From: Myxococcales bacterium
GTDB lineage: Bacteria > Myxococcota > UBA727 > VGSZ01
DNA length: 64,000 bases
Direction: 5' to 3'
NCBI GenBank assembly: GCA_023248635.1
Contig: JAHFED010000004.1
Span: 1-64,000 of the forward strand
How positions within the stretch are numbered: the first letter of the stretch is position 1; each line of letters begins with the position of its first letter. A model generated the notes under the pieces. The model was not told the origin of the DNA, ran no database searches, and saw only the letters and a list, made by a program, of their open reading frames with translations. The position numbers were made by a program, and so were the translations under genes. Positions 3,882 to 47,360 of this stretch are shown piece by piece.

Positions 3882-4144
3882 CGTGCGAAGTCCTCCTGGG
3901 CGGCGGCGGCGCGTGCGGAATCTAGGGTTCCGCACCAGCAATAGATCAAGAGCACAAGACGACGACGCCGGCGTCCCCATTCGAACCGATGGCGGCGTCG
4001 TCTCCGCCGTGCCAACGGCCCACGCGTGAGCGAAGCAAGGCGCAGCATCGGCCTCTTCTTGACGCAAGACGTCACTGGCTCTTGAGCACTTCTCCGGCGG
4101 CCACCGGCCTGGCGATTCGACGCTGGGGGGGGTACGCCGTCGCC

Positions 4145-7072
4145 ATGCTGCGCACCTTTGCCTTTGCCGCTCTTTTCGCCCTTCCCGTTGCTGCCGCTGG
4201 CGTCGTCGTCGACGTGCCGCCGCTCTCGCTGCCGGCCGCCGCTGGCAAGCGCGCGGTGGAGATCGCGGCCCGGGGGCTGTTTCTCGATCCGGCTTGGCTG
4301 CTGACCGATCCCGCCTTCCAGCACGCCTCCGACGTCGACGTCGTTGCCCATCCCTTCGCCGGTCGGTTTGTGGTGCGGGCCACTCCGTCGGTGCAGGGCA
4401 TTGCCGTCGAGGGTGCCGATCGCGTGTTGCTCATCGAGGGCGGCACTGTGCGTCATGTGCAAGGCACCGATCGCTCGCTCACGCCCGTGTCGAGCTTCCG
4501 CGTGGCCGCCCACGAGGCCTTGGCGACCGCCTTTCTCTCGGTGAAGGGGGGCATCGTCGTCGACCCCACCGTCGAAAGGGTCAGCGGCTTCGCCCAACCC
4601 GTGTGGGTGGCCCGGCCCGATGGACTCCACGCCGCCTTCCGCGTTCGCGTACCCACCTGGCGCATAGAGGATCTGCGCGACGTGTGGATCGACGCCGCGA
4701 CGGGCAAGGTGCTGCTCTCGAAGGCCACGGCCAACTTTGTCGGCGGTGCGGGCGGTGAAGGTGAAGGCGAAGGTGAAGGCGAAGGTGAAGGCGAAGGTGA
4801 AGGCGAAGGTGAAGGCGAAGGTGAAGGTGAAGGTGAAGGTGAAGGTGAAGGTGAAGGTGAAGGAGAAGGTGAGGGAGAAGGTGAGGGAGAAGGTGAAGGT
4901 GAAGGTGAAGGCGAGGGAGAAGGGGAGCCGCTGCCCCCGGCTCCGACCGCTGCGCGGGTGTTCGAGTTTGCTCCCGCCGCCTCCGGCATCAATGCGGCCG
5001 ATCTCGTCGACGTCGAGCTCCAAGATCTCCTGCCCGCCGAGCTGGGGGGACCCTTGGCCGGCTTTCACTTCGAGACGGCCAATTGCTGCAAGTTCGTCGT
5101 CTGCAACGACGGCTCGCGGGACTGCCTGACCACCCTCGATCCCGAGCAACTGGCCGTCGACGTCGCCCGCTGCGCCACCCAAGACGACATCGACGAAGGC
5201 GTCGCCGTCGAAAGCGTCATCCAGCCTCAAAACGGCATCCCGCGCGACTCCCTGCCCTTGCCCCCGCAGATCGCGGGCTTTGTCCCTGATCCCCTCTTTG
5301 TGAAGGTCGTCTTCTGCGCCGAGTTGCCGCGAGCAGCCTCGACGCCGGCGACGGCTGACGACCCCGCGGGCTGGTTCTTTGATCCCGTCGACGGCGACCG
5401 CGGCAACGCCGTGAAATGTGGCGAGCCCGGGGCCGATCCCATCGGATGCGCCGCCGAAGAGGACGCCTTCGCCGAGGTCACCGTCTATCACGCGACCCAG
5501 GTCTACTTCGAGCACATCAAAGAAGTCCTCGACGACCCCGGCTTTTGCCTCGGCGGCTTGAGCCAGCGCTGCGAAAACGACGGCAGCGCGGAGCTCGACG
5601 TCGACGGCAAGCCCGTGCGCCCCTTCCACATCGGCACCAACGTCTTGTTCCCCCAGTTCGACATCAACGCCGTGACCCAGCAGCTGCTGGGCGGACGCGG
5701 TGCCAACGCCGGCAACCCCGTCGTCATCGACGACTTCCAACGCATCCCCAACGCGGCCTTCATTCCGGCGACCACCGGCGGACCTGTGCAGATCCCCCCC
5801 GAGCTGCAGGCCCTCGCCCAGCTCTTCAACCGGCCCTTCGACAGCAACATCTACTTCCAAGGCAGCCGCGACTTCGCCTACGACGGCGACGTCACCCGCC
5901 ATGAATTCACCCACGGCATCGTGCACGCCTTCGTGCCCGGGCTCGGCAGCTCCGGCGTCGACGATCAAGGCACCAACGCCGAAAGCGGCGGCTTGAACGA
6001 GGGCTGGGCCGACTATTTCTCCTCGAGCTTCGCCGGCAACTCCACCGTCGGTGACTACGCCGGTCAGGGGCTGGGCGGTGCCGAGATCGGCCTGCGCGAC
6101 AACGACAACGAGAAGAAGTGCCCCGACGACATCATCGGCGAGGTGCACGCCGATTCCGAGCCCTGGGCAGGCGCGCTGTGGGCCATCCGCGACGAGGTGG
6201 TGGCCGCCAGCGGCGACGTCGACGAGCTCGACAAGGTCCTTTTGCTGTCCATGGCCCTCGCCGACAATGATGAAGACATGACCCGGGCGTCGGCGCGTGC
6301 GGTGACCGCTGTTCGCACTGCTTTTGGCGAGACCCTCGGTGATTTCGCGCAGGCGGAATTTGACCGCCGCGGCGTCAACGGCTGCAAGCGCGTGTGGCCA
6401 CTGGCCGTCGTCGACGGCGACGACATCGACGTCACCGGCAAAGACACCCTGTTCCAGCCCGGCGCTGCCGATGTGGGCCTGCAGAACTTTGCGCCTTCGG
6501 TGCTGCAGTTCCGCGTCGCCGTTCCCAAGGGCTCGGCTGGTTTCACGTTGAAGTGGGCCGAGCAGTCCGGTGGCCTCCTCGGTGGCGGGACACCCGCGCC
6601 CCTCTCTGTTCTGGTGCACGACGTCACCGGCCAGGCCGCTGATGCCCGCATTCACTGGGAGTACGAAGGCAACGGCGGCACCTTGGCCGTGCCCTACGAC
6701 GACGCTGGCGACGAGATCATCTTTGACGAGACGGCGACGGCGGCCAGCATTGGTGCTGCCAACCAAAACACCGGCCTCGCCAACGCTTCGTTCACCCACA
6801 CGCTCACGTCGGACGGCTGCATCGAGCGCACCTTCGTCGTCGCTTTCGTCGCCCCGGAGGGCGGTGGGACCCTGGTGAACATCTCCGTCGACAACATTCC
6901 CACCGACACCCCCTGCGCAGCCGAAGGGGAAGGCGCGGAGGGCGAAGGCGAAGGCGGCGCCCCCGACGGCTGCCCCTGCTCGGGCACCAGCGGCCGTCCC
7001 TCGTCGCTCGTCTTGCTAACCGGAGCGCTGCTGCTGCTGCGCCCTCGTCGCCGCACGCCCACCTCGGCCTGA
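4145..7072 (+). CDS. Secreted M36/fungalysin-like zinc metallopeptidase with Gly-Glu linker and MYXO-CTERM-like tail
   Basis: This 975-residue protein starts at the ATG at 4145, which opens a signal peptide (MLRTFAFAALFALPVAAAG). The N-terminal 200 residues resemble a propeptide. A linker of 29 Gly-Glu dipeptides follows. The catalytic region carries HEFTH (zinc ligands His586 and His590, catalytic Glu587) and NEGWADYF with the third ligand Glu619, as in M36/M4 gluzincins. Near the C-terminus a short Gly-Glu stretch leads to CPCSG, a hydrophobic span (LVLLTGALLLL) and RPRRR. That order matches the MYXO-CTERM sorting signal, so surface anchoring after processing is likely. Substrates are unknown; an extracellular degradative role is inferred. 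Confidence 0.88.
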   Translation: MLRTFAFAALFALPVAAAGVVVDVPPLSLPAAAGKRAVEIAARGLFLDPAWLLTDPAFQHASDVDVVAHPFAGRFVVRATPSVQGIAVEGADRVLLIEGGTVRHVQGTDRSLTPVSSFRVAAHEALATAFLSVKGGIVVDPTVERVSGFAQPVWVARPDGLHAAFRVRVPTWRIEDLRDVWIDAATGKVLLSKATANFVGGAGGEGEGEGEGEGEGEGEGEGEGEGEGEGEGEGEGEGEGEGEGEGEGEGEGEGEGEGEGEPLPPAPTAARVFEFAPAASGINAADLVDVELQDLLPAELGGPLAGFHFETANCCKFVVCNDGSRDCLTTLDPEQLAVDVARCATQDDIDEGVAVESVIQPQNGIPRDSLPLPPQIAGFVPDPLFVKVVFCAELPRAASTPATADDPAGWFFDPVDGDRGNAVKCGEPGADPIGCAAEEDAFAEVTVYHATQVYFEHIKEVLDDPGFCLGGLSQRCENDGSAELDVDGKPVRPFHIGTNVLFPQFDINAVTQQLLGGRGANAGNPVVIDDFQRIPNAAFIPATTGGPVQIPPELQALAQLFNRPFDSNIYFQGSRDFAYDGDVTRHEFTHGIVHAFVPGLGSSGVDDQGTNAESGGLNEGWADYFSSSFAGNSTVGDYAGQGLGGAEIGLRDNDNEKKCPDDIIGEVHADSEPWAGALWAIRDEVVAASGDVDELDKVLLLSMALADNDEDMTRASARAVTAVRTAFGETLGDFAQAEFDRRGVNGCKRVWPLAVVDGDDIDVTGKDTLFQPGAADVGLQNFAPSVLQFRVAVPKGSAGFTLKWAEQSGGLLGGGTPAPLSVLVHDVTGQAADARIHWEYEGNGGTLAVPYDDAGDEIIFDETATAASIGAANQNTGLANASFTHTLTSDGCIERTFVVAFVAPEGGGTLVNISVDNIPTDTPCAAEGEGAEGEGEGGAPDGCPCSGTSGRPSSLVLLTGALLLLRPRRRTPTSA
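4754..4927 (+). repeat. Hexanucleotide tract encoding 29 Gly-Glu dipeptides
   Basis: Units of GGNGAR are repeated in frame inside the M36-like peptidase gene, forming an acidic flexible linker between the propeptide-like part and the catalytic part. The third bases vary between T, C and A, so the tract is not a perfect microsatellite, but internal runs of GGTGAA are long enough for slippage in steps of two residues. Shorter versions occur in the lipoprotein genes at 37020 and 45856. Confidence 0.95.
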
Positions 7073-7098
7073 AGCCAAGCGCATCGGCGATCACGAGA

Positions 7099-7200
7099 GA
7101 ATTCATCGCCGCCAGGCGATGAACCTGCAGACAATTCACCGACACGCGAAGCGCTGTCGGTGAATTCATCGCCGCCAGGCGATGAACCTGCAGAGAATTC
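7099..7200. repeat. 63-bp composite palindromic repeat, copies 1 and 2 (second partial)
   Basis: Three GAATTC sites at 7099, 7162 and 7195 bound this region. Each unit begins GAATT and continues into the small palindrome CATCGCCGCCAGGCGATG (7-bp stem). A linker AACCTGCAGACAA then leads into a larger palindrome, TTCACCGACA pairing with TGTCGGTGAA around a GC-rich inner hairpin. The unit length is 63 bp. The second unit stops after the linker. The same unit occurs twice at 54476. It fills the gap in front of the S1-domain gene. Confidence 0.9.
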
Positions 7201-7258
7201 CGGCCCTTTACAGCGGCGGGGGCAAAGGGCATCCGACGTCGACGAAGGAGCCTTCTTC

Positions 7259-9262
7259 ATGAGCGACAACACCGCCCCCGAGACCCCCGCCCCCGCCGAC
7301 GCCGCGGCGGAGCCGCCTCCGCAGGCGCCTGAGAGCACCGCCGCTGAGAGCCACACTGCCGCGGGCGACGCGTCGTCCCAGTCGTCGCCCGGCGAAGGTG
7401 CGCCAGACGGTGGCCAACGACGCCAGGGCGGTCGTGGTCGACGGGAGCGTGGTGGTCGTTCGGAGCGCGGTCGCGAGAACCACAATGGTGGCGCACGCGG
7501 ACGGGACGAGGTGCGGCGTGATCACCGTGGTCGCGCCCTCGATCTTTCGCCACCGCGCTTCAACGTCGACGAATTGGCTGCCGTCGCCGGCATGCCGCTG
7601 TGGCAATCGGTACACGACGCCGCCATCGTCGAAGTCACGCCGGCGGCCGTCGTCGTCGAGGTCAAACCGCTGGGACACGATGCCGTCAAGGCCTTGGTCA
7701 GGCCCGAGGAGCTCGCCGATCTCGCCATCGGCACCGCGCTGAAGGTGCGCCTGCTCGATCCCCCCAAAGACGGCGAAGGCCTGCCGCTGGCGTCGGCGAA
7801 ACAAGCGCGCGACCTCGCCCGCTTCGATGAGATGCAGGGCTCGCTCGACCTCGAGGCGGTGCCCGGAGCCGTCGTGCGTGAGGTGAAGGGCGGCTACTCC
7901 GTCGCTTTGTTCACCACCGAGATGTTCGGCGTCGGCGATGGCGCCATCCGCGCTTTCTTGCCCGCGAGCCAGGCCACCCTCTCGCGCTTTGGACCGCAGC
8001 GCGGCGACCGCATCGTCGGCGGCGTCGGCGACTTCAAGGTCGGCGAGGTCGATCTCGAGCGCGGCAACATCGTGGTCTCTCGCAAGGCCGTGCTCTTTGC
8101 AGAGCGCGATCGCGAAACCAAAGAGCGCCTGTCATCGCTCAAAGAAGGCGACGTCGTCACCGGCGTGGTCCGCAGCATCATGCCTTACGGCGCCTTCCTC
8201 GACGTCGACGGCCTCGATGGGCTGCTGCACCGCGACGACATCTCGTGGGATCACCGCGGTCGCATCGATCAGCACCTGCGCGTCGGGCAGAAGCTCGAAG
8301 TCAAAGTGCTGGCCGTCAAAGAGCGCAAGCTGAAGCTGGGTCTGCGCCAGCTGCGCACCGATCCCTGGGGAGAAGTGCGGGCGGCCTTTGCCCATGGCTC
8401 CGTCGTCAAAGGTGTGGTCACCGGCCTCGCCGACTTCGGCGTCTTCGTGAAGCTGCCTTTGCCCGAGAACCCGAGCGAGTCCATCGAAGGCCTCATTCAC
8501 GTGTCGGAGATCAGCTACGCCAAGGTCAGGCACCCGTCGGCGCGGTTCCAGATCGGCGAAGAGATCGACGTCAAGGTCATCGGCCTCGACGCCGACAACC
8601 GCCGCATGTCGCTCTCGACCCGCGCGCTCGAGCGCAATCCCTTCGAAGCCATCGCCGAGAAATTCCCCGCCGGCACCGTCGTCAAAGCCAAGGTCAAGAC
8701 CCTGGCCGACTTCGGCGCCTTCATCGCGCTCTCCGAGTCCGTCGACGGCATGGTGCACATCGGCGAGATCTCTTGGACCGAGCACCCGCAGCATCCCTCC
8801 GAGCTCTTGACCATCGGCCAAGAAGTCGAAGCCGTCGTCATGAGCGTGGACACGGCGAAGCAGCGCGTTTCTTGCTCGATCAAGCGTACACAAGAAAATC
8901 CGTTCGACGTCTGGGAAAAGAAATACCGCCCGGGCACGCGCCACAAGATGAAGGTGGTCCGCGCCGACGACAAAGGCGCCACCCTCGAAGTCGAAGCCGG
9001 CCTCTCTTGCTACTGCTCGTGGCGTGATTTGTTGGACAAAGATGGCAACGCCGTCGAGCGTGCCACCGACGCTGTGAAGCAGGGCATGAACATTGAAGTC
9101 GAAGTCCGCACCTTCGATCGCCGCTTCAAGAAGGTCAGCGTGTCCATGCGTGCCGTCGTCGAGGGCGAGACCAAGAAGGCCTACGACGAATACAAGAAGA
9201 AGGAGCACACGACCGGTGGGCTCAACTCCTTGGCCGACAAGCTCAAGGGCGTGAAGGTCTGA
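7259..9262 (+). CDS. S1-domain RNA-binding protein, ribosomal protein S1-like
   Basis: This 667-residue protein starts at the ATG at 7259, preceded by GAAGGAG; the open frame upstream is only the 63-bp repeat. The first 95 residues are Pro/Ala- and then Arg/Gly-rich, an RGG-like disordered region. Five S1-type OB folds can be recognised after residue 190. Three are well conserved, each with a GVV(R/T)xxxxYGAF or FGVF-type strand and a GLxHxxxISW-type motif; the first and last are degenerate. Such proteins bind mRNA and assist translation initiation. It may be the organism's S1 or a paralogue; the N-terminal extension is not part of the classical protein. Confidence 0.85.
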   Translation: MSDNTAPETPAPADAAAEPPPQAPESTAAESHTAAGDASSQSSPGEGAPDGGQRRQGGRGRRERGGRSERGRENHNGGARGRDEVRRDHRGRALDLSPPRFNVDELAAVAGMPLWQSVHDAAIVEVTPAAVVVEVKPLGHDAVKALVRPEELADLAIGTALKVRLLDPPKDGEGLPLASAKQARDLARFDEMQGSLDLEAVPGAVVREVKGGYSVALFTTEMFGVGDGAIRAFLPASQATLSRFGPQRGDRIVGGVGDFKVGEVDLERGNIVVSRKAVLFAERDRETKERLSSLKEGDVVTGVVRSIMPYGAFLDVDGLDGLLHRDDISWDHRGRIDQHLRVGQKLEVKVLAVKERKLKLGLRQLRTDPWGEVRAAFAHGSVVKGVVTGLADFGVFVKLPLPENPSESIEGLIHVSEISYAKVRHPSARFQIGEEIDVKVIGLDADNRRMSLSTRALERNPFEAIAEKFPAGTVVKAKVKTLADFGAFIALSESVDGMVHIGEISWTEHPQHPSELLTIGQEVEAVVMSVDTAKQRVSCSIKRTQENPFDVWEKKYRPGTRHKMKVVRADDKGATLEVEAGLSCYCSWRDLLDKDGNAVERATDAVKQGMNIEVEVRTFDRRFKKVSVSMRAVVEGETKKAYDEYKKKEHTTGGLNSLADKLKGVKV

Positions 9263-22641: not shown

Positions 22642-23472
22642 TCAGACAGGGATCGCGAGTCGGCGCAGCTGGGGCAGGAGAACGGAGGAGAACAGGCGGG
22701 TCACCACGGCCCGCTCCTCATCGGGGGTGCAGGAGCCGAGTCCAGCGTCGGCCACCATGCTGCGCAGCTTGCCCTGCGAGGAGCGCGCGGCGGCGGTGCT
22801 GGCGCGGTTGCTCCGGCCCGCCCCCCGCAGGGCGGGCTCCAGCGAGCGCGCCAGACTGCGCCGCTCTGGCTGCGTCAAGGTCGGCACGACCCGCTCGGCG
22901 ACGGCCCAGGCGAAGGCGACGTGCACGCTCTCGTCTTTCAAGGTGCGGGCCACGATGGCGCGCAGCTCGGGGTGCGTGGTGCGTTGCACGCGGGCCTGGA
23001 TCAACGCGCGGCTGACGGTCTCGCCCAGGCAGCCACCGGTGACCAAGGCCTCGATCATCGTCGACGCCGTGGGGGCGGCGTAGACGTAGGGATCGTAGGC
23101 GAGGTCGTCGGGGACGTCTTCTAGGTAACCGCCCAGGGCGTCGGCTGCCTGTTGGGAAAGGCGTGTGTGCAGGGCCTCGTCGTGAAGGATTCCCGTCAAC
23201 GCCGACGTCTCGCCCAGGGGCACCTTCTCCTGCACGCCCTTGAGAAGGATTTGGGAGAGGGCCGGCACCGCGGCGTATTCGCTCCAGGCGCGTTGGCTCC
23301 AGAAACGACGGGCGGCCTCTCGGATCGGCTTGGACAAAGCTCGAAACGAAGGCAGCGCGTATTCCTTTTCGGCCTCGGCAGGGCGCTGCTGGTAGTGGCG
23401 CTCGATGCGGCGGATCTTCGCAGTCCCGATGGCCAGGGCGACGCGGACGCCCATCGTCACCGGGTCATCCAT
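22642..23472 (-). CDS. Ferritin-like (diiron-type) protein
   Basis: This 276-residue protein is mostly helical and carries two E-x2-H motifs, GILHDEALHTR and LKDESVHVAFA. With an intervening Glu in LGETVSRAL, this is the ligand pattern of a four-helix-bundle diiron centre. The activity is unknown; long-chain oxidase, hydroxylase and storage roles are all possible. The ATG at 23472 overlaps the preceding gene by 16 bp; a second ATG at 23454 would remove the overlap. It converges on fumarase with stops 10 bp apart. Confidence 0.65.
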   Translation of the reverse strand: MDDPVTMGVRVALAIGTAKIRRIERHYQQRPAEAEKEYALPSFRALSKPIREAARRFWSQRAWSEYAAVPALSQILLKGVQEKVPLGETSALTGILHDEALHTRLSQQAADALGGYLEDVPDDLAYDPYVYAAPTASTMIEALVTGGCLGETVSRALIQARVQRTTHPELRAIVARTLKDESVHVAFAWAVAERVVPTLTQPERRSLARSLEPALRGAGRSNRASTAAARSSQGKLRSMVADAGLGSCTPDEERAVVTRLFSSVLLPQLRRLAIPV

Positions 23473-24080
23473 GCCTTCTGCGATCCCTTGGCCTTCGCCG
23501 CCGGTGCCTCCTGCAGTTGGCCCATGCGCGCGCGCCAGGTGCCGGCGTCCTCCTTGGCCACCAGGGCGCCCGCCTCGCGCAGCGCCTTCTGAAACAAGCG
23601 CTCGCGATCGACGGCCGGCATGCGCCCCTGGAACACCGATTGAGATCGCGAAGCCCGCGACGGCGTCTCCCGCGACAGCTCTTCGAGCGCCTGCCTGGCG
23701 TCGGGCCCACCGAGGTACCCCAAGGCCCAGACGGCGCCGTCGAAGGACCAGTAGTCGACGTCGTCGGCGATGGGGCGGTCACGCAGCTGCGCCGCCAGCG
23801 GGGCCGCGCCGGCTTGGGCGCTGCGACCCAGCGCCCCGAGGGCCTTGGCGATGTGGCCCACGCACAGCAGGTTGGGGGCGACCTCGACCGCAGCGACCAG
23901 GATGGCGGCGTGGGCGTCGAGCTGGCCAGCGCGCGCCTGCTCCCTCAGGGCAAGGGCGGCGACGTCGGCGCGATCGGGATCGGACGCGCAGGTCTCGAAG
24001 TAGGCGGCGGCGACCTCGTCGATGGGCAAGGCGACGAGCTGCTTCACGGCGGGCGATTGCGCGGGGTCGAAGGCAGTCAT
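23457..24080 (-). CDS. HEAT-repeat-like protein of unknown function
   Basis: This 207-residue protein starts at the ATG at 24080. It consists of Ala/Leu-rich helical pairs such as HIAKALGALGRSAQAGAAPL and AVWALGYLGGPDARQALEEL, typical of HEAT or Armadillo-like repeats that bind protein partners. It has no signal peptide. It overlaps the downstream ferritin-like gene by 16 bp, so the two are likely translated together and may work as a pair. No close family is recognised. Confidence 0.65.
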   Translation of the reverse strand: MTAFDPAQSPAVKQLVALPIDEVAAAYFETCASDPDRADVAALALREQARAGQLDAHAAILVAAVEVAPNLLCVGHIAKALGALGRSAQAGAAPLAAQLRDRPIADDVDYWSFDGAVWALGYLGGPDARQALEELSRETPSRASRSQSVFQGRMPAVDRERLFQKALREAGALVAKEDAGTWRARMGQLQEAPAAKAKGSQKAWMTR

Positions 24081-24370: not shown

Positions 24371-24748
24371 ATGATCACAAGCAAGAACGGCGTCTTTCAG
24401 CGACCTCTCGCCATGGCCAAGCAGTTCGACAAAACCGGCAACACCATCAGCAAGGCCGAGGCCGAGAAGCTCGTGGGCACGATGAAGAACGCCCTGATCA
24501 ATGAGTACGAGGGTTCCAGCTCGTCCAAGGGTCTCGCCAAGGACCGCGACGTGTTGGCGCGCACCGCCAAGGCGATCATCAAGAACGCCGACAAAGGCAG
24601 CTGGGCCCTCACCGGCCCCGGCAAGCAGGTGTTCCAAGAGGCTTTCGGCAAGGCCATCGACGGCAAGAGCGGCTCCATTGGCCAGCTCGTCGACAAGATC
24701 CGCAACGACGTGAAGGCCAACTCCACCGGCTACACCTATTACGGCTGA
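24371..24748 (+). CDS. Small EF-hand-like protein
   Basis: This 125-residue protein starts at the ATG at 24371, which follows GAGG at a good distance. Near residue 18, FDKTGNTISKAEAEKL resembles a calcium-binding EF-hand loop but is one residue short of the canonical 12, so calcium binding is doubtful. The rest is helical and Lys/Ala-rich, ending in NSTGYTYYG. There is no signal peptide. The next gene begins 3 bp after its stop, suggesting co-expression with the kinase-ligase fusion. Confidence 0.65.
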   Translation: MITSKNGVFQRPLAMAKQFDKTGNTISKAEAEKLVGTMKNALINEYEGSSSSKGLAKDRDVLARTAKAIIKNADKGSWALTGPGKQVFQEAFGKAIDGKSGSIGQLVDKIRNDVKANSTGYTYYG

Positions 24749-24751
24749 GCG

Positions 24752-26326
24752 TTGACGGCCGTGTCATCTGGCGCTGCCTTGCTCGCCCGCGCCCGACGAG
24801 AGCTCCCCGCTCTGGTCGGCGTCGGGCGAGCCCGTTTTTTCCCGCCGAGCGAAGGCGGCGCCCACGTCGTCGTCGGCGTGGGAGATCTGATCATCAAGGC
24901 TCGCTTGACGGGCGCCGACGTCGGCGACGAAGTCCGCGCGCTGCGGGCCGCCGGTCCCTTGGCGCCTGCCCTTTTGCACCCCAAGACCCCACGCGCCGCC
25001 CCGTTCCTGATCGAAGAGCGCCTGCGCGGCCGTCCCTTCAACCTGGATGAGCGAGCGCTCGTCGAGGTCGCTGCATTGCTCGCGCGTTTGCACACGCGCG
25101 CTGCGCCGGGGCTGCGCTGGCTGCCGGGTGGGGCGACGCCGAAGGCCGCCGTCGCCGCCGGGCTGCCAGTGCTGGCCGCCCTGCGCGAGCAAGGAGTGCT
25201 GACGTCGTCCATCGCACGCAGTGTCGCCAGCTGCCTGCGCGCGCATGGCGCCCGCATCGACCAGGCCCTGGCCTTTGGCGACGACCACAGGCCGCGCCTC
25301 TGTCATGGTGATGTTCGCCGCGCGAACCTGCTCGCCACCAGCGACGGCCCGCGCCTCATCGACTTCGACCTCGCTGGCCGCGGTGACCCTGCGGTGGACC
25401 TCGCGCGCTTCTGGTCCTACGAGCGGCTCAGCGATCACGCGCGCTTCCTCGTGGCCTGCTCCTACGACAACGCCGGCGGCGACGCGGCCGTCGTCGACCG
25501 CGCGTGGGCGCTCTGGCCGGCCATGCCCCTGGTGCTCGCGATCTCCGCGCTTCGCCATGGCGTGGCCTCAAAAGCGCCCAAGGCGCAGGTCCGTGCTCGA
25601 GTGGCCCGCATCCGTGCGCTGTCGTCGACGAAGCCCCCTCTCCCTCTCCCTGTCGTCGACGGCAACCCACCGCTGATCGGGCGCATCCCCCACCTGAGCG
25701 GCAGCCGCTGGGGCCGGGATGACCTGCAGCTCTCGGCGCAGGAAGAAGCAACGCTGCGCGGGGAATCGGTCGTCATCGTGGAGAAGGTCGATGGCATCGC
25801 CGTGGCGTTCTTCGCCGACGACGACGGCGAGGTGGCCGTCACCATGAAACGCGAGTGGCGCCACGCCCTCGACGGCGCCGTCTTTCGCATGGCTCGTCGC
25901 TGGACCCAGGCGCACGAGCAGTCACTGCAAGGCTTGCTGCGCGACTCGCGAGGACGTCGACGCGTGCTGCTGGGCGAGTGGCTGTGGCACCGACTCGCGC
26001 TCCGCTACACCAGCCTGCCGAGCGCCGTGCTCGTTCACGGGCTCGTCGTCGACGGCGTGTTGCAGTCGCGGGCCGTGGTCACCCCGCAGGTGCAGGCGAG
26101 CGGTCTTGCAACAGTGATCCCGTGTTTCGCCGGCGTCGTCGGCGAACGCAGCTGGGCATCGTTGGTGCCGCAGCGATCGATGTTTGGTCGCTGTCGGCCC
26201 GAGGGCATCGTGGTTCAAACCCAGGGCCCGGGTGCAGCCCGCTACGCGAAGTGGGTGGCGCCGCACTACGTACAGCCGAGGCCGGCGGACATCACCGGGG
26301 CCTGCAACTTGGTGCGCAGTCCGTGA
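24752..26326 (+). CDS. APH-family kinase fused to an RNA-ligase-type nucleotidyltransferase
   Basis: This protein has about 524 residues and starts at a TTG 3 bp after the previous stop, or at a GTG at 24761. Residues 1-300 form an aminoglycoside-phosphotransferase-like kinase. The catalytic loop HGDVRRAN holds His185, Asp187 and Asn192, and DFD (204-206) is the metal-binding motif. Residues 320-524 match the covalent nucleotidyltransferase superfamily. Motif I is EKVDG with the nucleotidyl Lys345, motif III is GEWLW with Glu409 followed by LRYTSLP, motif IV is EGIVV with Glu484, and motif V is AKWVAP with Lys500. Motif III and its context resemble the RNA ligase family (Rnl2/DRB0094-like). 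A role in nucleic-acid end repair is inferred. Confidence 0.75.
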   Translation: MTAVSSGAALLARARRELPALVGVGRARFFPPSEGGAHVVVGVGDLIIKARLTGADVGDEVRALRAAGPLAPALLHPKTPRAAPFLIEERLRGRPFNLDERALVEVAALLARLHTRAAPGLRWLPGGATPKAAVAAGLPVLAALREQGVLTSSIARSVASCLRAHGARIDQALAFGDDHRPRLCHGDVRRANLLATSDGPRLIDFDLAGRGDPAVDLARFWSYERLSDHARFLVACSYDNAGGDAAVVDRAWALWPAMPLVLAISALRHGVASKAPKAQVRARVARIRALSSTKPPLPLPVVDGNPPLIGRIPHLSGSRWGRDDLQLSAQEEATLRGESVVIVEKVDGIAVAFFADDDGEVAVTMKREWRHALDGAVFRMARRWTQAHEQSLQGLLRDSRGRRRVLLGEWLWHRLALRYTSLPSAVLVHGLVVDGVLQSRAVVTPQVQASGLATVIPCFAGVVGERSWASLVPQRSMFGRCRPEGIVVQTQGPGAARYAKWVAPHYVQPRPADITGACNLVRSP

Positions 26327-47055: not shown

Positions 47056-47124
47056 CGACGACGGCGCGACATGCGCTGCCCACGGGGGTTCAACGAACGA
47101 GGCCGCCCGTTCTCGCGGTGGCTT

Positions 47125-47360
47125 CGTTGCTCCCCGCAGGGCCGGTCTCCTGGCTTGCAGCCCGGCTGCGTCACCTTCCCAGTCGTCTGCGACCAGTGGC
47201 TCTCGACGCGCCGTGACGAGGTAGAAACCCGTCGGCTGCTTACAGTGGCGGAACCGCGCTGGACTGCATGTTTTTTCCCATGATCACCAGCTTCCCAGAC
47301 CCGTGGTCGCCCTCGCGCCCCCGGGTCGCCCTGCGTGCATTCAAATTGTCCGAGCACCCG
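47125..47360 (-). promoter_or_regulatory. Cobalamin riboswitch
   Basis: Read on the minus strand, the conserved blocks of the cobalamin aptamer appear in order. GGGTGCTCG lies at 47359-47351 and GGGAAGCTGGTG at 47296-47285, whose GCTGG pairs with CCAGC downstream. CCGCCACTGTAAGC is at 47251-47238, GGGAAGGTGACGC at 47180-47168, and the B12 box AAGCCAGGAGACCGGC at 47156-47141. It is about 100 bp upstream of the first lipoprotein gene of an operon containing btuB- and btuFCD-like genes. It should lower expression when adenosyl- or methylcobalamin is abundant. Which ligand form is preferred cannot be told. Confidence 0.93.

Follow-up and report, generated by a model that had tools for sequence, protein, structure and literature searches.

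A recurrent cassette linking an APH-type kinase to an RNA-ligase-type nucleotidyltransferase in Myxococcota, a candidate RNA kinase-ligase module

RNA repair, tRNA splicing and phage counter-defence all centre on kinase-ligase pairs, and the pairs described so far use P-loop kinases. In the T4 Pnkp/Rnl1 and Trl1-type systems, the P-loop kinase comes with a 3'-end-healing phosphatase or phosphodiesterase. The kinase and the ATP-dependent nucleotidyltransferase ligase of T4 Pnkp/Rnl1 and of Trl1-type tRNA ligases cooperate, sometimes within one polypeptide (PMC3400036). A precedent for an RNA-phosphorylating kinase with a positive patch is ArkI (AQ578 family), which has a non-canonical kinase motif, carries that patch for tRNA and converts tRNA U47 to 2'-phosphouridine (PMC9095486).

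We analysed a window of 64,000 nucleotides, which is the stretch from position 1 of contig JAHFED010000004.1 (assembly GCA_023248635.1, a Myxococcales bacterium of the phylum Myxococcota). An original prediction made from the letters and open reading frames had proposed that one polypeptide in this window carries a complete APH-type kinase site together with the motifs of an RNA ligase. The features of the locus are the following.

23457 to 24080, minus strand: HEAT-repeat-like gene, 207 aa, divergent from the cassette (HEAT_2 match at E 0.0016, under the cut-off)
24371 to 24748, plus strand: small basic helical protein, 125 aa, disordered tail ending YTYYG, pI 9.7
24752 to 26326, plus strand: APH kinase-RNA ligase fusion, 524 aa, TTG start, a single open reading frame with Pfam and structure matches of both halves
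24752 to 25660, plus strand: APH-fold kinase half, with K49, HGD 185-187, N192 and DFD 204-206
25652 to 26326, plus strand: RNA-ligase-type nucleotidyltransferase half, with motif I K345-x-D-G (K345-V-D-G), GEW 408-410 including E409, EG 484-485 and KW 500-501

Profile searches placed each half above its curated cut-off. Pfam APH (PF01636) matched aa 59-226 (E 1.5e-16, score 61.3 against a cut-off of 23.2) and RNA_ligase (PF09414) matched aa 339-501 (E 2.6e-7, score 31.4 against a cut-off of 27), with all of the predicted residues present, including the HGDxxxxN and DxD motifs of APH kinases. The PF09414 score rose to 34.0 when the ligase half was searched alone, and relatives scored 35.4, 39.1 and 50.0. 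The fusion, present as a single copy in the window genome, starts 3 bp past the stop of the 125-aa open reading frame, and the GTG at 24761 could serve as the start instead. An AlphaFold model (11-row alignment, mean pLDDT 73) had a low-confidence linker after the kinase half, at about aa 274-304. In a PDB structure search the modelled kinase half resembled choline/ethanolamine kinases and APH(2'') (best E 2.2e-9), and in a viral structure library the ligase half resembled viral RNA ligases (8e-6 to 6e-4), with ethanolamine kinases also among the matches of the fusion model. The window fusion is real: it runs in one frame and both of its active sites are complete.

To find relatives, we searched the family, order, class and phylum of the window (195 genomes) with the protein and a ligase alignment, and then 384 relatives. 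Eight further genomes had an APH domain linked to a ligase of the same type. A contig search with the single protein missed all of these relatives; alignment A1 recovered three. Together with the window's own, nine genomes of the phylum, several of which are metagenome assemblies, thus hold a cassette of a small basic protein, an APH kinase and an RNA ligase, in these layouts.

Window: small gene, then APH-ligase fusion
G192: small gene, APH gene, ligase gene; APH and ligase separate, overlapping by 4 bp
G193: small gene, APH gene, ligase gene, all separate
G001, G015 and G162: small gene, APH-CMK fusion, ligase gene, CMK being a cytidylate-kinase-like P-loop domain
G165, G166 and G170 (one genus): small gene, then ligase-APH fusion, in reverse order

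On the strength of these layouts, the unit is the cassette rather than the fusion, kinase and ligase often being separate genes. The kinase-ligase linkage nevertheless looks functional from this comparison, because nine genomes have it and the fusion exists in either order. The survey upheld the proposed combination of APH kinase and RNA ligase, though not the fusion as its unit. A frameshift or assembly error that joined two genes had been named as a risk to the original prediction. Such a chance or artefactual joining of unrelated genes would fit the two separate, overlapping genes of G192, the nearest relative, and the dip of GC3 in the linker; it is opposed by the adjacency of kinase and ligase in all relatives, by the reverse-order fusion in three other genomes and by codon-position composition, which shows no frame switch at the junction. 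We rejected it as the cause of the link and hold it to be highly improbable; on the same sequence evidence, the junction is unlikely to hide a frame error, and as to the functional link this explanation is already contradicted.

With the PF09414 ligases of bacteria and phages (Rnl2/Rnl3-like), the cassette ligases share motifs I, III, IV and V and the fold, and the KxDG motif with its catalytic lysine, the glutamate that is E409 in the window, the EG of motif IV and the lysine of motif V were invariant in all eight cassette ligases compared. They differ from other members of the family in being bare catalytic domains, in being much more basic, in the separate clade of the forward members and in standing always with an APH domain and a small gene. 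In the window, the ligase half consists of the nucleotidyltransferase domain by itself, about 215 aa long: the open reading frame ends about 24 residues past motif V, Pfam gave no further domain, and the C-terminal domain seen in Rnl2-type ligases is absent. In a tree of 42 ligases (six forward and three reverse cassette ligases and 33 others), the six forward ligases formed one clade (support 99/95) and the three reverse-fusion ligases another (100/100), and the two groups together made up one side of a branch with support of only 57/14. No APH domain was found near any of the other 33 ligases in the flanks retrieved, whose length was about 1.5 kb in most cases and 5-6 kb in several.

In the kinases, the strand-3 lysine is replaced by arginine in G193, and the asparagine of HGDxxxxN is replaced by histidine in G193 and in the reverse fusions. 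The CMK part of G001, G015 and G162 is a clear relative of NMP kinases (Pfam Cytidylate_kin, 6e-29 to 3e-37), and in G015 its P-loop is without the lysine (GSGSS). Given these changed kinase sites and the missing P-loop lysine of G015, the roles may differ between branches, and the kinase may be altered in G193 and in the reverse-fusion genus.

We compared the flanks of the six forward loci all against all and found that what they have in common is the cassette genes. Two exceptions were a conserved gene about 11 kb from the window cassette, whose counterpart occurs only in G001, a genome of the same family, and a single distant, weak match to G015. The three reverse-fusion loci were mutually syntenic, as expected inside one genus. 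No cassette match was found in phages or, with alignment A1, in the viral contigs searched, and the plasmid matches were distant ligases without an APH domain nearby and one lone APH; we therefore rejected a mobile or phage origin. Outside the phylum, a thin survey of about 190 genomes and two small phyla gave no APH-linked ligase in the loci examined. A search for a non-coding RNA partner found neither Rfam families nor a tRNA near the cassette. Elsewhere in the window, a Cobalamin riboswitch (Rfam RF00174, 77 bits) lies at 47123-47348 on the minus strand.

The cassette is patchy, as it was not found in two genomes of the window's own genus, and its flanks differ between loci. Such a distribution would suit an RNA-based conflict system, related to phage defence or to toxins, in which the module repairs or marks host RNA after attack; so would the setting of other, standalone PF09414 ligases, seen in the phylum and once on a Tistrella plasmid, which come after genes for an ATPase and a predicted nuclease matching the PADLOC candidate defence pair HEC-03B and HEC-03A. 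We think a conflict role improbable: PADLOC gave no match to the six cassette proteins tested, no nuclease was identified in the cassette, no phage or viral copies were found in the searches and plasmids held distant ligases only, and the neighbours in the window (adenylate cyclase, fumarase, peptidase, amidase) look ordinary by inspection.

The HEC-03 sets themselves consist of three genes, an AAA_15/DUF3696 ATPase (HEC-03B), a predicted nuclease of about 175 aa (HEC-03A) and then a PF09414 RNA ligase. They lie at these positions.

L050 (G109:C1), 6104-8705: HEC-03 pair and ligase
L052 (G111), 3942-6518: putative HEC-03 pair and ligase
L053 (G024), 4855-7443: putative HEC-03 pair and ligase
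L057 (Tistrella mobilis plasmid pTM2), 3170-5630: HEC-03 pair and ligase

The G109 proteins matched HEC-03B and HEC-03A at 1e-108 and 2e-32. Judging from the families tested in L050 and L057, a third gene, encoding an RNA ligase, seems to go with this candidate defence pair. That ligase shares its Pfam family with the cassette ligase, whereas its partners are an ATPase and a nuclease in place of an APH kinase and a small protein.

The small gene adjoins the enzyme genes at all nine loci and is likely their partner, as had been proposed for the gene 3 bp upstream of the fusion. The EF-hand character ascribed to it at the same time did not survive: of the loop, I8 and E12 remain, but every aligned member lacks calcium ligands 1, 3 and 5, the best calmodulin match was at E 0.18, and neither a Pfam match nor an EF-hand fold by structure was found. 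We therefore rejected the calcium reading. The protein is predicted to have five helices and a disordered C-terminus (pLDDT 86) and gave no significant structural or family match. In profile searches its main family occurred in 5 of 193 genomes of the phylum, all of them with the cassette; this profile did not reach the small proteins in G193 and in the reverse-fusion genus, which are too divergent. Since homology between the two small-protein families is unsupported (hhalign probability 1%), we treat the small gene of the reverse-fusion genus as an analogue in place and character only.

The tails of the small proteins are short or long, flexible and Gly-rich with Tyr, Ser, Thr and Arg (YTYYG, YTYHG, SPYGG, PYGGGGGGGGGSFGSFS, GYSGGGGRSRRSYTPRTSRYAGT and repeated TTG/GGR units), and they are not conserved past composition. 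At three loci (L051, L054 and L055) with the small gene upstream of a ligase-APH fusion, the number of TTG/STG/GGR repeats varies between species or strains of one genus. In G001, a second small basic open reading frame (L005, 11117-11485, minus strand) lies directly upstream of the cassette's small gene and ends SPYGA; it shares the C-terminal SPYG[GA] with the cassette protein (38% over 21 residues) and is possibly a tag or a diverged paralogue.

These tails bring up a protein-modifying module, in which the APH kinase would phosphorylate Ser, Thr or Tyr of the tail and the nucleotidyltransferase would adenylylate the phosphate or attach a nucleotide or RNA there, which would make the small protein the substrate. 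The flexible Gly-rich tail with Ser, Thr or Tyr on every small protein, the like ending of the second small gene in G001 and the constant adjacency to the enzymes all speak for it, as does the presence among the APH relatives of LxmK of class V lanthipeptides, a weak match to the kinase (E 0.0018). We consider it unlikely, as the tails have no sequence conservation past composition, the strongly basic kinase and ligase fit nucleic acid better, and we know of no action of the ligase superfamily on phosphoproteins. A more specific version is improbable and speculative: kinase and then ligase would act on the tail with the phosphoresidue taking the place of a 5'-phosphate, which would be adenylylated and joined to a nucleotide or RNA end, giving a protein-RNA or protein-AMP conjugate.

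A HEAT-like gene accompanies six of the nine cassettes, namely all six forward loci, where it is divergent in five and downstream in G162. The protein matched alphaRep designs (E 1e-7). A HEAT profile recovered the six cassette genomes and also G013 and G014, in which the gene stands without a cassette, and no HEAT-like gene was found with the reverse fusions. We therefore rejected it as a strict component, and because it stands alone in two genomes, it is on this comparison an associate outside the cassette core. In G013 and G014 the gene lies beside recJ-like and mutS-like genes (L104, 4921-5655, minus strand; L105, 3531-4247, plus strand). Adjoining the window cassette, a gene at 22642-23472 on the minus strand has a weak match to AurF p-aminobenzoate N-oxygenase (9e-6, under the cut-off) and is absent from the other loci.

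Charge gave a clue to the substrate. In the cassettes, small proteins, kinases, P-loop domains and ligases are all basic (pI 9.2-11.6; 9.2-11.1 for the small proteins and above 11 for the P-loop domains), and most HEAT proteins are neutral or acidic. Counted per 100 residues, net charge had a median of +5.0 (3.2 to 7.0) in the cassette ligases compared to 0.0 (maximum 2.8) in 33 other ligases (p 3e-6), and in five cassette APH stretches it was -1.1, 3.6, 4.5, 4.7 and 5.9, compared to a median of -2.1 (maximum 2.9) in 22 control APH domains of the same genomes (p 7e-4, Mann-Whitney), although members are related and the p-values overstate independence. The non-basic stretch was that of G001. 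Since kinases and ligases of the cassette exceed their ordinary counterparts in basic charge, we infer that charge favours a nucleic-acid substrate.

The kinase matches point elsewhere, to a small-molecule or nucleotide pathway in which the APH domain would make a phosphate ester (of a nucleoside or a thiamine-like compound), the CMK-like domain, where there is one, would add a second phosphate and the nucleotidyltransferase would make an AMP conjugate. The best NCBIfam match of the kinase was thiamine kinase (2.2e-9, far under the cut-off), its structure matches were small-molecule kinases, and the CMK-like domain is a clear relative of NMP kinases. Against it, the six forward loci have no genes for biosynthesis, transport or regulation conserved beside the cassette, the small protein is dedicated to the cassette and, like the kinase and the ligase, basic, and the P-loop of G015 is degenerate. 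We regard this pathway as distinctly unlikely. RNA is the better-supported substrate, given the basic kinase, ligase and partner and the family of the ligase, and the original suggestion that RNA is acted on gains to that extent.

Set beside Pnkp/Rnl1 and Trl1, the cassette likewise has a kinase and a nucleotidyltransferase ligase that would act together, sometimes in one polypeptide. Its kinase is APH-fold, however, no 3'-end-healing domain was identified, and it has a dedicated small basic protein. Pfam found no P-loop 5'-OH polynucleotide kinase in the window's fusion, and no domain of a 3'-end-healing phosphatase or cyclic phosphodiesterase in the fusion, APH, ligase or HEAT proteins searched. 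Use of an APH fold instead of a P-loop kinase, as first proposed, thus holds for the window, while three members (G001, G015 and G162) add a CMK-like P-loop domain, which is degenerate in G015. As the defining P-loop kinase and 3'-healing parts were not found in the window protein, the cassette appears to be of the kinase-ligase kind yet outside the Pnkp/Rnl and Trl1 systems. With other PF01636 proteins of the APH/choline-kinase-like type, the window kinase shares HGDxxxxN, DFD, the strand-3 lysine and the structure match, and it differs in that cassette kinases are basic and not acidic and lie next to an RNA ligase or are fused with one; the members known so far act mostly on small molecules. 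It is apparently of a different family from ArkI, for which we know of no ligase partner.

The explanation we prefer, tentatively and at somewhat under an even chance, is a self-contained RNA kinase-ligase module in which the APH-fold kinase would prepare an RNA, the ligase would adenylylate it and seal or cap it, and the small protein would act as partner. The small protein would bind RNA or the enzyme through its basic helices and flexible Gly/Arg/Tyr/Ser/Thr tail. The kinase, acting first, would transfer phosphate from ATP to a specific RNA, either at a 5'-OH end produced by nuclease cleavage or, in the manner of ArkI with tRNA, at a 2'-OH. Next, the ligase half would adenylylate itself on Lys345 and pass the AMP to the 5'-phosphate, so that the break would be sealed or the end left adenylylated. 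The HEAT protein may serve as a scaffold or regulator. In the window, full kinase and ligase active sites and a dedicated small protein are present, and HEAT-like and cytidylate-kinase-like parts are optional. The bare ligase domain, the lack of an identified 3'-end-healing domain and the altered kinase sites of some branches count against an RNA module, as does the fact that APH relatives mostly phosphorylate small molecules. Because the ligase half is without the Rnl2-type C-terminal domain, sealing may need a partner or may fail to occur.

In the literature searched, whose coverage left the main RNA-repair operon review outside, we found no published description of the cassette, the pairing or the small protein. 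The component families were known before, and it is their pairing, the cassette and its small protein that are apparently undescribed. If the RNA kinase-ligase reading is true, the APH fold would be a second kinase fold recruited to RNA ends or RNA 2'-OH groups. It would also assign a biochemical function to some members of the APH and PF09414 families, which are large and unassigned, and would add a family of small basic partner proteins, so far found with the cassette only.
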